Source of the DNA: Chloroflexus aurantiacus J-10-fl | GTDB lineage: Bacteria; Chloroflexota; Chloroflexia; Chloroflexales; Chloroflexaceae | Reading direction: 5' to 3' | Assembly: GCF_000018865.1 (NCBI RefSeq) | Contig: NC_010175.1 | Location: forward strand, 4,340,001 to 4,404,000 | Length of the DNA: 64,000 bases | Shown here: piece by piece, positions 41,261 to 47,416 of the stretch | How positions within the stretch are numbered: position 1 is the stretch's first letter | How the letters are laid out: the number at the start of each line of letters is the position of its first letter | Program-made: the position numbers and the translations under genes | Notes under the pieces: generated by a model | Databases searched by the model: none | What the model saw: the letters and a program-made list of their open reading frames with translations, nothing else | Told to the model about the DNA's origin: nothing

Positions 41261-41287
41261 TATATTTCTCGCTTTAATTAATTATGG

Positions 41288-41315
41288 CCACAGAGCAACT
41301 CTGTGGTCTTTTTTT
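41288..41315 (+). terminator. intrinsic terminator of the sdp-type operon
   Basis: CCACAGAG-CAA-CTCTGTGG followed by TC and a run of eight or nine T. A textbook rho-independent terminator. Confidence 0.9.
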
Positions 41316-41361: not shown

Positions 41362-41389
41362 TTGACATTTGTTTTTTGGGTGATAAAAT
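41362..41389 (+). promoter_or_regulatory. sigma70-type promoter for the emfourin-like / M4 protease genes
   Basis: TTGACA (41362-41367), 16-base spacer, TAAAAT (41384-41389), about 180 bases before the first start codon. Confidence 0.6.
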
Positions 41390-41569: not shown

Positions 41570-42049
41570 ATGGTGGAACATTGCTACCCTCAGAGAAAGC
41601 GAAGCAGGCATGCCTCTTCCTTCTGGAGATACGTTTTGGCTGTCTGCTTCTTACTCTTCCTGTTGAGTATTGCTGGATGCGCATTTGCCTCTGTTCAGCC
41701 CCGTAAAGCGAAGGCCTTGATCTTTACGCGCAGTGGTGGTTTTGCCGGCGTCTCCGATGAGCTAACTATTGATCTGGAGACAGGCACTGCGCATTTACAG
41801 AACGGAAAGGAAATACGAACCACAACACTATCACAAGAACAACGTACACGCCTGCAAGCACTAATTGCAGGTCTTGATCTGAGTAGTCTCCCGGCAACGC
41901 CGTCGCAAGAGCAATGTTGTGATTTGTTGATGTATCGGATTCAGATTGACACCGTCGTTATTCAAACCACTGATGGAGAGATACCGCCTGCGTTGCAGCC
42001 ATTAATTGCAGAACTGAATGTGATAGTGTCAGGAATGCTCTCTCAATAG
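41570..42049 (+). CDS. emfourin-like lipoprotein, putative inhibitor of the adjacent M4 protease
   Basis: A 159-residue protein. A basic N-terminus (PQRKRSRH), a hydrophobic segment YVLAVCFLLFLLSIAGC and lipobox SIAGC indicate membrane anchoring outside the cell. The mature domain begins ALIFTRSGGFAGVSDELTID. The RSGGFAG block and overall size match emfourin, the inhibitor of protealysin-type M4 proteases, whose gene normally neighbours the protease. Here the M4 protease starts 42 bases downstream. I read it as a lipid-anchored emfourin that protects the cell surface or delays protease activation. There is a Cys pair (EQCCDLLMY) not needed for the family. The link is by motif and context only. 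Confidence 0.7.
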   Translation: MVEHCYPQRKRSRHASSFWRYVLAVCFLLFLLSIAGCAFASVQPRKAKALIFTRSGGFAGVSDELTIDLETGTAHLQNGKEIRTTTLSQEQRTRLQALIAGLDLSSLPATPSQEQCCDLLMYRIQIDTVVIQTTDGEIPPALQPLIAELNVIVSGMLSQ

Positions 42050-42091
42050 CCCGGTTCATAAATGTTGGGTGTAACGAAAGGGAGGGGTTAT

Positions 42092-45000
42092 ATGCGTACA
42101 CGTCGCGTCTTTTCCTGGCTCACACTTATCATCGTGTTCTGTTGGCAACTAGGACTGGTCGCTTCATTCTCGCCAGCTCCTGTCGTATTGGCGGCCCCTC
42201 CGAGCGAGCGACCACAGCGAGTCTTTGTAGATGAGTTTGTTGCTCCCCATCCAACCCTTGCAGTAGCATTGCCGGGTGCTGCCGGCAATGATCCGAAGAC
42301 GGTTGCGCTCGACTTTTTACAAGGGCCAGGTGTAAGTTTGGTGAATACTGTGAGTGATCTCACCTGGATGCCTGTACGAAGCGAGGCAGTTGATGAGGGT
42401 GTGACGGTAGTCCGGCTAGGTCAGTACAAAGATCAAATTCGGATTTGGGGTGCCGATCTGGCGCTTCAGGTGGCTGGTGATACGGTACGTAGTGTCAGTG
42501 GTGCATTTATTCCACAAGTGTCGGCAGATACAAAGCCAGTGATTTCTCTGGATGAAGCGATCAAGCTGGCAACTGTGGCCTTGCAGAACGACCCACCGCG
42601 GCACGATGACGCGGAACTTGCTTTCCTGACCACGGCTTTTGCCAAGGCTCGTCTTGACGAGCATGAACTGGTCTTTTTCAATCCTGAGCTGTTTGGATTG
42701 GAAGAGAGTGATACAGCCCTTGCCTATCGGTTAGTGTTAACAGCGCCAGATGACAGTGTCAGCGCAACCGTTGTCGTTGATGCGATATCCGGTAAAGTTC
42801 GTCTCAGTTTTTCGAACTATCACAGCGGGTTGAATCGAGTAATTCGGGATGCTGGTGGGGTAAGTACGACATCTGGAAGTGTATGTTATACCGAAAGTGG
42901 CCCTTCCGGTACGCCACATCCTGATTGTGTAGCAGCTTTTACGAATACCGGTCTAACATACAACTATTTCTGGAGCACCTTTGCTCGTGATAGCTATAAT
43001 GGGTCTGGTGCTACTATGATTGCAGTCGTGCGGTATGGCACGGCTGCAAATGCTTTCTGGAATGGGTCGCTAACAGCGTATGGACCAGGCTTTGCTACTC
43101 GCGATGTTGTAGCCCACGAATGGACGCATGCGGTAACGCAGTATACTGCCGGTCTCATTTATAACGGTCAATCGGGTGCTCTAAACGAGTCGTTCTCTGA
43201 TGTGTTTGGGGCGATGGTTGATAGCGACGACTGGCTGATGGGTGAAGACACACCAATTGGTGTGATCCGTAGTCTAGCTAATCCCCCTGCGTACAATCAA
43301 CCTGATCGAGTGAGTAATTATGTGTGTACCACCAGTGATAATGGCGGAGTACACATTAATAGTGGTATCCCCAATAAAGCGGCATACCTGATGGCCGAGG
43401 GTGGAACGTTCAACGGACGCACGATCACCGCGATTGGTCGTCTTGCTACTGCGCGCATTTTTTACCGTGCGCTTACTGGTTACTTAACCTCGGCATCCAC
43501 ATTCACAGACTTGTATAACGCTTTGCTGGCAGCGGCATCTTCGCTGTATGGCTCATCGTCATCGCAGTATCAGGCAACGCTTAATGCTGCTCAGGCAGTA
43601 GGGCTCAATACACCGGTTCCTTGTGGTGGTTCGGCTACACCTGATAGTTATGAACCCGATAACAGTCCAGCTACAGCAAGCTCGATCACAGTTAACAGTG
43701 CGGCACAAAACCACAACTTCCATATAGCCGGTGATCAGGACTGGGTCACATTCAATGCAACGAGTGGAACCGTTTATACAATTCGGACCAGCGGTTTGCA
43801 GAGCAGTGCTGATACCGTTCTGGCATTGTTTGCGAATAATGGGTCTCTCCTGTTGACCCAAAATGACGATTACGGCGGTAGCCTGGCATCACAGATTGTC
43901 TGGACGGCAACAGCCAATGCACCTCTGCACGTGCGGGTTACCAATTTTGGTGGCCGGGGTGGTGCGAATACTGGCTACAGCCTGACCGTGACATCATCTG
44001 CTCCAACAACGCCACCCGATGCATACGAACCTGATAACGCGCTTAGCACTGCCAGATCAATTACAGTGGGTGGTGCAGCACAGCGTCACAACTTCCATAT
44101 CGCCGGTGATCAAGATTGGGTGCGGTTTAGTGCAACAGCGGGTACTACGTATCGTATCGAGACACTTAATCTCGGTGCAACCGCTGACACTGTGCTTGAA
44201 CTGTACAATGGGAGTGCTGTACGCCTGACCTACAATGATGATTACGGTGGTACTCTGGCATCACGAATCGATTGGTATGCGCCAACCAGTGGTACCTTCT
44301 TCGTAAGAGTACGACATTACAGCTCTGCTGCGTATGGTACAACGACCAGTTACGATATACGAGTTCTAGGTATACCGGTAACTGGTGACAGCTATGAACC
44401 TGACAACAGCCAGAGTACGGCCCGGCCAATTGCGGTCAATGGCGCAACGCAGACCCATACCTTCCACGTTCCAGGCGATCAGGACTGGGTATGCTTTAAT
44501 GCCGTAGCCGGACAATCGTATGTCATCGAGACGTTGAATCTGGCCTCTGGTAATGATACTGTCCTCGAGTTGTATAACAGTAGCGGAACCCTGCTGGCCT
44601 ACAATGATGATTACGGCGGTACTCTGGCATCACGTATTGGATACACCTCACCTGTGGCGCAACAGTTGTGTGTGAAGGTGAGGCATTACAGCAGTAGTGC
44701 CGGTGGTACGCATTTGCGGTATGATTTACGCGTTGTAACAGTCGATAGCGCCACTCCTGACTCGTATGAGCCGGACAACTCCCCTTCAGAAGCTCGTACA
44801 ATTACACCAGGGACACTCGATGCGCCCAATACAACGATTCATAACTTCCACGTCGCGGGTGATCAGGACTGGGTAAGCCTTACTGCGGTTGCCGGTGGTT
44901 TCTACCGCTTTGAAACCGATAGCCTTGAGTCACGTGCCGATACCGTCATTTCACTCTTCAACTCATCGCTATCGCTGTTGGCTGAAGACGACGATGGTGG

Positions 45001-47416
45001 CGAAGGTCTGGCATCACGTCTAACCTGGTATGCGCCAAGTGATGGAACCTACTATCTCCGCGTTCGCCATTACAATAGTAGTATTGGCGGTTCGCAAACT
45101 GGATACCGGCTACGTATTGGAGCATATTATACTCCCGCTACTCCTGATGCCTACGAGCCTGATAATACGCTGGCTACTGCCAAACCAATTTCAACCGGTG
45201 GGGCAACTCAAGACCACAACTTCCACGCCATTGGTGATCAGGATTGGGTTTACTTCGATGCAGTAAATGGTGTCGAGTACACGATGCTCACCAGTGATCT
45301 TGGTACCCGTGCTGACACGGTGCTTGAGTTGTATAGCAGCAGTGGTAGCTTGCTGGCGTTCAATGATGATTATAGTGGGTTAGCGTCACGGATTGTCTGG
45401 CAAGCCCCTGCAACCGGTCGCTTTTATCTGAAAGTACGCCAGTATAACGGTAATGTGTATGGTGCCAATACCAATTATCGTCTGAGAATCTCTAGCGCAA
45501 CGCCTGATGCGTATGAACCAGACAACACACTCAGTGCTGCTCGCCCAATTACCGTTAATGGCGGATCACAGAGCCATAACTTCCATGCTGCCGGCGATCA
45601 AGACTGGATTGTTTTTGGGGCCACTGCCGGTTATCTTTATCGCATCGAAACTTTCAATCTGGCTTCCTGCAGTGATACGGTGCTTGAGTTGTATAACAGT
45701 AGCGGCACCTTGCTGGCGTTCAACGATGACGGTGGTGGCGGTTGGGCATCGCGAATTGATTGGACGGCGCCTTCCTCAGGGAATTTCTATGTGAAGGTGC
45801 GTCACTATAGCTCTGCGGCTTACGGTGCCTGTACTGCATATGAGGTTCGGGTGACTAGTAGTGGGTCCGTGGGTGACAGTTATGAGCCGGATAATACCCT
45901 TGCAACTGCTCGCCCGATCACTGTCAATGGAACTGCACAAAGGCATAATTTCCACGTTGCCGGTGATCTAGACTGGGTCTACTTCGATATCAGTTCTGGT
46001 TATCGCTACAATATACGTACCTTTAATCTGGGTTCGTGTAGCGACACAGTGCTCGAGTTGTATGATAGCAGTGGTACCACCAGGCTGGCGTATGATGATG
46101 ATGGTGGCGGTGGTCTGGCATCACGGATTGAATTCATTGCCTTAACCAATACCAGACTTAACCTCAAAGTTCGCCACTATAGCGCTTCGGCGAGTGGTCC
46201 ATGTACCCAGTATGATCTGGAGGTGACCAGAATCGCAGGAATTACCCCTGATGCCTATGAACCCGATGATACTTCTGCTCAGGCACGTCTCTTCACCGTC
46301 AATGGCAGTGGTCAAAACCGGAATTTCCATACACCAACTGATCTAGACTGGGTTGTCTTCGGGGCTACAGCCGGCACAACGTACACCATCTACACCTACA
46401 ATTTAGGAGCCGAAGCCGATACGGTCCTGGAACTGTACCGAAGCGATGGTACAATGATCGCGTATAACGATGATGGTGGTGGCGGCTGGGCATCACGGAT
46501 TGTCTGGACAGCATCGGCTACCGGTAGTTACTTCGTTAAGATTCGGCCCTACGGTTCAACCGGTGGACGGCCAACATCAACCTACTCGTTCCGGATTATT
46601 ACCGGCACTACATTGAGTAACGAAGACGAAGCAGGCCATGCGCTAACACCACTCGTCACAACACAGAATGAGGAGGTAAGTGGTAATCGCCTGCGTGTAG
46701 TGGATGTTACCGTTGATACTACTCCGCGTCCCGGCCAGGAATTTACGACGGTTATCCGGGCTGTAGGTTCGGCTGAGAGTGTCAAACTCGTGATCACGCC
46801 GAAGAGCAGTCTGGTTGACTTACTTGCCATCGAGCCACTCGCTGCGGATGGGCAGCCGTTGGCAGAGAATGGATGGCTTGCTCAGGAGTTGAGCACTGGC
46901 GATCTGGTAATTATGACGGCCTGGAGTGCCGACCAACCAACCGACTTTGTGCGGTTGCGCTGGCGGCTGCGGGCAACTCTTGACGAAAAACTGCTCGTCT
47001 TGCCTGTCCAGGTGCTGGCCACTGATGGAAGTGGTGATTTCTGGCAGAGCCAGGTCGCTGTAGCGGTACCAACTGTCGCCGGTGCAGCCAAGATCGATGA
47101 GGTTTCACCAACGTTCGTTACCATTTCCTCGACCGCAACGCTGAGTATTCGGGTGAGTGGTCTGAATGGTGAACTGCCAAAAGCATATCTCGTTGATATG
47201 AATGGGCAGAACGAGCAGCAATTCGCCGCTATTTCATACGCACCGGGTTCGGACGATACACTCATCGCTTCGTTTGATCCTTCCTTCAAGTCAGGCTTCT
47301 ACAAGGTGCGGCTTGATTTGGCGGATGGAAGCCAGGTCTTCTCAGAGGTGATAGTGCGTCTCCTATCGCCGGGTGAGCGAGTCTACAACGTGTACGTCCC
47401 GACAACACTGCGGTAG
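42092..47416 (+). CDS. giant secreted M4 (thermolysin-like) metalloprotease with eight PPC repeats
   Basis: A 1774-residue exported peptidase. ATG 42092 follows GGAGGGG; an ATG 30 bases earlier is less likely. A signal peptide (to about VVLAAPP) is followed by an FTP-type propeptide (GVTVVRLGQYKDQIRIWGAD). The M4 catalytic domain carries zinc motif HEWTH (342-346), third ligand Glu 366 in LNESFSDVFG and the catalytic His 421 in NGGVHINSGIPNKAAYL. From about residue 515 come eight repeats of about 120 residues, each opening (D)-S/A-YEPDN and containing HNFHxxGDQDWV and a YNDDxGG.LASRI core, as in pre-peptidase C-terminal (PPC) domains. About 260 residues of beta-rich C-terminus end in YNVYVPTTLR. 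PPC repeats suggest substrate or polymer binding. Confidence 0.94.
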   Translation: MRTRRVFSWLTLIIVFCWQLGLVASFSPAPVVLAAPPSERPQRVFVDEFVAPHPTLAVALPGAAGNDPKTVALDFLQGPGVSLVNTVSDLTWMPVRSEAVDEGVTVVRLGQYKDQIRIWGADLALQVAGDTVRSVSGAFIPQVSADTKPVISLDEAIKLATVALQNDPPRHDDAELAFLTTAFAKARLDEHELVFFNPELFGLEESDTALAYRLVLTAPDDSVSATVVVDAISGKVRLSFSNYHSGLNRVIRDAGGVSTTSGSVCYTESGPSGTPHPDCVAAFTNTGLTYNYFWSTFARDSYNGSGATMIAVVRYGTAANAFWNGSLTAYGPGFATRDVVAHEWTHAVTQYTAGLIYNGQSGALNESFSDVFGAMVDSDDWLMGEDTPIGVIRSLANPPAYNQPDRVSNYVCTTSDNGGVHINSGIPNKAAYLMAEGGTFNGRTITAIGRLATARIFYRALTGYLTSASTFTDLYNALLAAASSLYGSSSSQYQATLNAAQAVGLNTPVPCGGSATPDSYEPDNSPATASSITVNSAAQNHNFHIAGDQDWVTFNATSGTVYTIRTSGLQSSADTVLALFANNGSLLLTQNDDYGGSLASQIVWTATANAPLHVRVTNFGGRGGANTGYSLTVTSSAPTTPPDAYEPDNALSTARSITVGGAAQRHNFHIAGDQDWVRFSATAGTTYRIETLNLGATADTVLELYNGSAVRLTYNDDYGGTLASRIDWYAPTSGTFFVRVRHYSSAAYGTTTSYDIRVLGIPVTGDSYEPDNSQSTARPIAVNGATQTHTFHVPGDQDWVCFNAVAGQSYVIETLNLASGNDTVLELYNSSGTLLAYNDDYGGTLASRIGYTSPVAQQLCVKVRHYSSSAGGTHLRYDLRVVTVDSATPDSYEPDNSPSEARTITPGTLDAPNTTIHNFHVAGDQDWVSLTAVAGGFYRFETDSLESRADTVISLFNSSLSLLAEDDDGGEGLASRLTWYAPSDGTYYLRVRHYNSSIGGSQTGYRLRIGAYYTPATPDAYEPDNTLATAKPISTGGATQDHNFHAIGDQDWVYFDAVNGVEYTMLTSDLGTRADTVLELYSSSGSLLAFNDDYSGLASRIVWQAPATGRFYLKVRQYNGNVYGANTNYRLRISSATPDAYEPDNTLSAARPITVNGGSQSHNFHAAGDQDWIVFGATAGYLYRIETFNLASCSDTVLELYNSSGTLLAFNDDGGGGWASRIDWTAPSSGNFYVKVRHYSSAAYGACTAYEVRVTSSGSVGDSYEPDNTLATARPITVNGTAQRHNFHVAGDLDWVYFDISSGYRYNIRTFNLGSCSDTVLELYDSSGTTRLAYDDDGGGGLASRIEFIALTNTRLNLKVRHYSASASGPCTQYDLEVTRIAGITPDAYEPDDTSAQARLFTVNGSGQNRNFHTPTDLDWVVFGATAGTTYTIYTYNLGAEADTVLELYRSDGTMIAYNDDGGGGWASRIVWTASATGSYFVKIRPYGSTGGRPTSTYSFRIITGTTLSNEDEAGHALTPLVTTQNEEVSGNRLRVVDVTVDTTPRPGQEFTTVIRAVGSAESVKLVITPKSSLVDLLAIEPLAADGQPLAENGWLAQELSTGDLVIMTAWSADQPTDFVRLRWRLRATLDEKLLVLPVQVLATDGSGDFWQSQVAVAVPTVAGAAKIDEVSPTFVTISSTATLSIRVSGLNGELPKAYLVDMNGQNEQQFAAISYAPGSDDTLIASFDPSFKSGFYKVRLDLADGSQVFSEVIVRLLSPGERVYNVYVPTTLR
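43642..46606 (+). repeat. eight tandem PPC-domain coding repeats
   Basis: Unit starts lie near 43642, 44018, 44387, 44758, 45147, 45505, 45873 and 46249, about 370 bases apart. Protein similarity is strong but DNA identity is only partial, so the array is old, unlike the near-identical 51-bp minisatellite. Confidence 0.9.

Follow-up and report, generated by a model that had tools for sequence, protein, structure and literature searches.

In Serratia proteamaculans, emfourin (M4in) forms a 1:1 complex with the metalloprotease protealysin at its active-site region and also inhibits thermolysin, and deletion of emfourin changes the growth of Serratia (PMC9505478). The window (the whole 64,000-nucleotide stretch of DNA that was analysed) carries a pair of genes that resembles the emfourin/protealysin system (PDB 6zyg): the smaller protein belongs to the same Pfam family, PF20242, has the same R-x-G-G-hydrophobic and Asp loops, and is encoded next to an M4 protease. 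Unlike the Serratia emfourin, however, the window form is a predicted lipoprotein, is encoded upstream rather than downstream of the protease and contains an extra beta hairpin. The protease also differs from protealysin, being a secreted FTP-type M4 with a signal peptide and PPC domains that falls outside the protealysin-like clade. To our knowledge, emfourins are known as cytosolic partners of protealysin-like enzymes, and an earlier mention of exported forms is possible.

Comparable arrangements exist in other inhibitor families. Inh and AprI are soluble periplasmic inhibitors of serralysin-type proteases and are encoded beside a secreted metalloprotease; the window pair would work in a similar way, with an envelope inhibitor by a secreted metalloprotease, although both the fold and the protease family differ. 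The MliC/PliC lysozyme inhibitors, whose target is foreign lysozyme, include lipid-anchored and soluble forms within one family, and emfourin, which belongs to a different family, would likewise occur in both forms. Exported metalloprotease inhibitors are also found in the SSI family (sermetstatin; SSTI, the inhibitor of the protease TAMP). Their fold likeness to emfourin is weak (Z 4.1-5.0) and may be just a common arrangement; moreover, no sequence relation was seen, and the SSI forms are secreted, not lipid-anchored.

The gene pair and its probable transcription unit

All features described below lie on the + strand. The first gene of the pair (41570..42049) encodes 159 residues and matches PF20242, the Pfam Emfourin model, with 51.3 bits (E 1.6e-13) against a curated cut-off of 27, which bears out the emfourin-like identity put forward by the initial annotation. 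It is the only match above the cut-off in the 5,258,541-base single-contig genome, and no NCBIfam model gives these proteins the name emfourin. At its N-terminus, a signal peptide and lipobox are predicted (41570..41680), wherein a basic n-region and then a hydrophobic stretch precede the lipobox IAGC at residues 34-37. The cysteine at the lipobox position is kept in 15 of 15 aligned lipoprotein forms, distant ones included, and the genome has matches to lipoprotein-processing genes (three LGT and two LspA). The product is predicted to be a lipoprotein, as it had initially been described, with Cys37 (41678-41680) as the putative lipidation site. The sequence RSGGFAG (residues 54-60; 41729..41749), which had been singled out as the emfourin mark at the start of the mature domain, is indeed located 17 residues past Cys37; it forms a hairpin loop, a candidate hydrophobic contact loop whose R-[ST]-G-G-hydrophobic core is conserved in most emfourins compared.

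The second gene (42092..47416) encodes a 1774-residue protein with a signal peptide, an FTP propeptide (42371..42508; PF07504, E 3.1e-6), an M4 catalytic domain composed of Peptidase_M4 and Peptidase_M4_C (42911..43603; 164 bits for M4_C) and eight PPC repeats with YEPD motifs (43649..46606; eight stretches of PF04151), in agreement with its earlier description as a secreted multi-domain M4 protease. It ends in VYVPTTLR (47390..47413), which comparison with the other partner proteases identifies as a divergent copy of a C-terminal tail, hY[LVM]PhhxR. The active-site motifs HEWTH (43115-43129), NESFSD and NGGVHINSG (43340-43366) are all intact inside the catalytic domain, which provides the HExxH, the Glu and the catalytic His of peptidase family M4 and aligns with thermolysin at E 1.4e-54. 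No other gene of the genome encodes an M4_C domain.

Upstream of the pair, a terminator-like hairpin with a T run (41286..41308; 10 pairs, then TTTTTTTT) closes the CPBP gene and stands between that gene and the pair. Downstream of the hairpin is a sigma-70-like promoter, TTGACA-16-TAAAAT with an extended -10 TG (41362..41389), which agrees with the consensus at 11 of 12 positions; this is a consensus match only, and promoter-like matches in the region occur in numbers close to chance. The emfourin start at 41570 has a plausible ribosome site in front, and a strong GGGAGG ribosome site precedes the protease start within the spacer (42050..42091), whose length is exactly the 42 bases first reported. 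With the hairpin setting the CPBP gene apart and a promoter-like site in front of the emfourin gene, the two genes likely form a bicistronic unit.

Distribution, phylogeny and joint loss of the pair

We surveyed Chloroflexota (400 genomes) and Actinomycetota (296 genomes), the latter reached via a canonical-consensus scan that gave one Frankia locus. An emfourin match was present in 49 of the 400 Chloroflexota genomes, and reading of the loci distinguished four layouts (A to D). Layout A has a short soluble emfourin directly 3' of a protealysin-like M4 that is about 380 residues long and lacks a signal peptide; it is also the rule in Actinomycetota, where 21 of 296 genomes carry emfourin and none of the readable loci in these 21 encodes a lipoprotein form. 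In layout B, which is that of the window, a lipoprotein emfourin lies directly 5' of a secreted FTP-M4. This layout occurs in ten Chloroflexota genomes, eight from the same family (G000, G198, G052, G404, G400, G190, G375 and G417) and two from two other families (G262 and G216); a further genome (G267) has a lipoprotein emfourin at which the contig stops. The initial annotation had regarded a membrane-tethered inhibitor beside a giant protease as a new layout. The lipoprotein nature, the upstream position and the secreted partner do differ from the canonical arrangement, but the layout recurs in these ten genomes and a giant protease is unnecessary. Full-length layout-B partners range from 667 to 1801 residues and carry PPC domains, MAM-like domains or no extra domain; therefore, the giant size is incidental, and neither it nor the PPC repeats are part of the emfourin-M4 system. 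A tblastn search against plasmids gave no match. Lipoprotein emfourins may also occur outside Chloroflexota and Actinomycetota.

Many lipoprotein emfourins have no M4 neighbour (layout D), and the domain therefore has further uses. Three Anaerolineae-type genomes (G325, G152 and G046) encode emfourin-like lipoproteins, one above the Pfam cut-off and two under it, and have no M4_C gene anywhere. At two loci from Chloroflexota genomes of another family (L155, 4297-6707; L156, 1492-3926), the gene of a lipoprotein emfourin overlaps one for a Ser/Thr kinase-like protein; nuo-like genes are close by but no M4 is, which suggests another role for these two emfourins. In layout C, a non-exported emfourin is encoded about 1.6 kb 3' of a secreted M4 that is about 870 residues long (L040, L041, L042, L046, L047 and L160); a cytosolic inhibitor facing an exported protease is a puzzle.

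The emfourin tree and the M4 tree agree in outline, and inhibitor types follow protease types. Canonical emfourins are split from all lipoprotein and layout-C forms (support 100/98), and protealysin-like M4s from all other M4s (100/100). The layout-C pairs are grouped at 100/99 in the emfourin tree and form one clade at 100/100 in the M4 tree. The proteases paired with lipoprotein emfourins fall into one clade (98/91), which also contains an exception: a 1790-residue M4 of G012, with 52% identity, that has no lipoprotein emfourin upstream. Within the lipoprotein part of the emfourin tree, the forks are only weakly supported, and a single origin of the layout-B pairs is therefore not supported by that tree.

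Inhibitor and protease are also linked in their presence and loss. Within the order, an M4_C gene accompanies an intact lipoprotein emfourin in each of the 22 genomes that carry one, versus 28 of 60 genomes without it (Fisher p 1.9e-6, uncorrected for kinship). In the window and in G198, the pair occupies a syntenic slot between a CPBP gene and an mscS gene, and both genes are absent from the same slot in G126 and G086. In G230, of the same genus, the M4 gene is gone from the slot and the emfourin gene is frameshifted; the broken gene is followed by an apparent protease ribosome site and first codons and then by the mscS gene, and the single-contig genome contains no M4_C anywhere. Loss of the protease together with decay of the inhibitor is the pattern that a dedicated inhibitor predicts, although the frameshift falls within a G run in one assembly, and an assembly error is therefore possible. 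Since the relatives keep, lack or lose both genes largely together, the inhibitor probably shields the surface of its own cell from this protease. At the empty slot of G126, the mscS gene itself has an internal TGA stop (L161; G126:C1:144711-145688).

Fold and candidate contact loops

In the AlphaFold2 model of the window emfourin (pLDDT 88.5), strands 1-4 are followed by a helix, then by two more strands and finally by a long helix; canonical emfourin has no counterpart of the hairpin that strands 3 and 4 form. R-[ST]-G-G-hydrophobic and Asp-x3-Tyr are the two features kept across emfourin groups, and the RSGGF and D118-LLM-Y122 of the window protein are found in canonical emfourins as well. 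SGG and the conserved Asp are 40-52 residues apart in layout A and 53-68 in the remaining forms. In a 2023 emfourin structure paper, inhibition reportedly proceeds via two loops, one of which places an Asp on the catalytic zinc whereas the other is hydrophobic. By analogy, Asp118 and Phe58 would be the natural candidates for such two-loop inhibition in the window protein. Asp118 lies in Cys116-Cys117-Asp118 (41915..41923), a putative zinc-blocking loop, and the Asp is present in 43 of 45 aligned emfourins. Of the 22 exported forms scored, 16 have a Cys adjoining this Asp, versus 0 of 21 non-exported ones, a difference that is suggestive only, the groups being related by descent. A stiffening disulfide would be the plain reading of these cysteines and a redox switch the bolder one.

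Among the solved structures listed, the window model comes closest to Mago nashi, with eight entries ahead of all others (VIA Z 9.5-11.4, 108-111 residues; Foldseek E 7e-4; the top entry has Z 11.4 over 111 residues at rmsd 3.1); the next fold is unrelated (Z 6.1), and 6zyg itself is a weak match (Z 4.0, 76 residues, 24% identity). For a canonical emfourin model, 6zyg is the best Foldseek match (E 1.8e-3), with Mago nashi at Z 7.5 and SSI-type inhibitors at about 5. Common ancestry with Mago nashi was not supported by sequence profiles: a PF02792 search of the emfourin loci of 28 genomes gave no match, and hhalign with two near-identical Mago rows performed no better than a reversed control. 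As judged from the models, the likeness is a fold resemblance only. In sequence searches of the PDB, the window emfourin alone found no emfourin, profile A2 retrieved 6zyg at E 0.003, and profile A1, made from the lipoprotein emfourins, did not find it. DUF6438 is also matched by 4 of the 15 lipoprotein emfourins in alignment A1 (best E 1.8e-4), hinting that emfourin and DUF6438 may belong to a wider superfamily.

Proposed role, alternatives and a shared protease tail

Taken together, we consider it probable that the lipoprotein and its M4 partner constitute a membrane-tethered self-protection system, in which the cell is guarded against its co-encoded protease by putative inhibition. This reading is built on the family assignment, the lipobox, the intact secreted M4, the conserved pairing and order, the shared presence and one joint decay, from which we infer lipidation, binding, inhibition, the roles of the loops and the biological purpose. 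The emfourin would be exported, lipidated at Cys37 and anchored to the external side of the cytoplasmic membrane. The protease, made second, would be exported by its own signal peptide and mature outside, where the emfourin would block it while it is still near the membrane; blocking would involve the two conserved loops: the GGF loop, with Phe58, would occupy the substrate cleft, and Asp118 would extend to the catalytic zinc. Once the protease leaves the surface or exceeds the inhibitor in number, it would become active. Since Serratia emfourin inhibits thermolysin too, inhibition of a thermolysin-type partner by a lipoprotein emfourin is plausible. If so, a lipid-anchored branch paired with secreted thermolysin-type proteases would extend the emfourin family to the cell surface and make it possible to test directly how a cell tolerates the export of broad-specificity proteases. 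Such proteins would also be natural inhibitors for thermolysin-like enzymes, a group that includes several proteases secreted by pathogens.

Other roles of the lipoprotein have to be weighed against self-protection. Instead of inhibiting the protease, it might help it to fold, mature or dock, keeping it at the membrane or directing removal of its propeptide: the lipoprotein gene comes first in the pair, its product would be placed at the exit point of the protease, and the C-terminal tail common to all nine clade proteases read might aid retention at the surface. We regard this role as unlikely, because the lipoprotein retains both loops of the canonical emfourins (R-[ST]-G-G-hydrophobic and Asp-x3-Tyr), whose known member is an inhibitor, and because the M4 of G012 belongs to the same clade and exists without a lipoprotein. 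The occurrence of emfourin-like lipoproteins in G325, G152 and G046, which are free of M4_C, would fit a guard against foreign M4 proteases of competitors, for which the neighbouring protease is one target among several or a passenger; joint absence and joint decay in Chloroflexus, the gene order kept in ten genomes and the correspondence of inhibitor and protease types in the trees make this distinctly improbable.

Reuse of the emfourin fold for an unrelated envelope function, with protease binding lost, might account for the lipoprotein emfourins that adjoin kinase-like and nuo-like genes at L155 and L156, but is very improbable for the window, given the conserved pairing with M4 and the candidate contact residues kept in paired forms. 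An ordinary cytosolic emfourin with a mis-assigned N-terminus can hardly be the correct reading: the 16-residue basic stretch ahead of the hydrophobic segment is longer than usual, but translation from 41570 is backed by a plausible ribosome site and the lipobox cysteine by all aligned forms.

An extension of the self-protection reading, which we offer as speculative and rather doubtful, is that extracytoplasmic emfourins are a separate branch of membrane-tethered zinc blockers of surface-held thermolysin-type proteases. The cysteines that frame their Asp loop (CC-D or C-x-D-C) would perhaps make these inhibitors redox-sensitive, and the proteases would be kept at the surface by an undescribed C-terminal tail of Chloroflexota.

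The tail, hY[LVM]PhhxR-COOH, ends 9 of 9 readable M4s of the lipoprotein-paired clade, whatever domains come before it (window, 47390-47413; L037, L149, L150, L153, L045, L154, L048 and L055), and is divergent in Chloroflexus; none of six layout-C proteases has it. Our literature search found no paper describing such a tail, which is a candidate C-terminal sorting tail. A DNA pattern for the strict tail gave 33 matches, in 7 of 10 Chloroflexota genomes, compared with 3 for the pattern reversed as a control; five Actinomycetota genomes gave no match. In 27 of the 30 loci read, the tail stands at the end of an open reading frame, and most of these frames are long or have a signal-like N-terminus.
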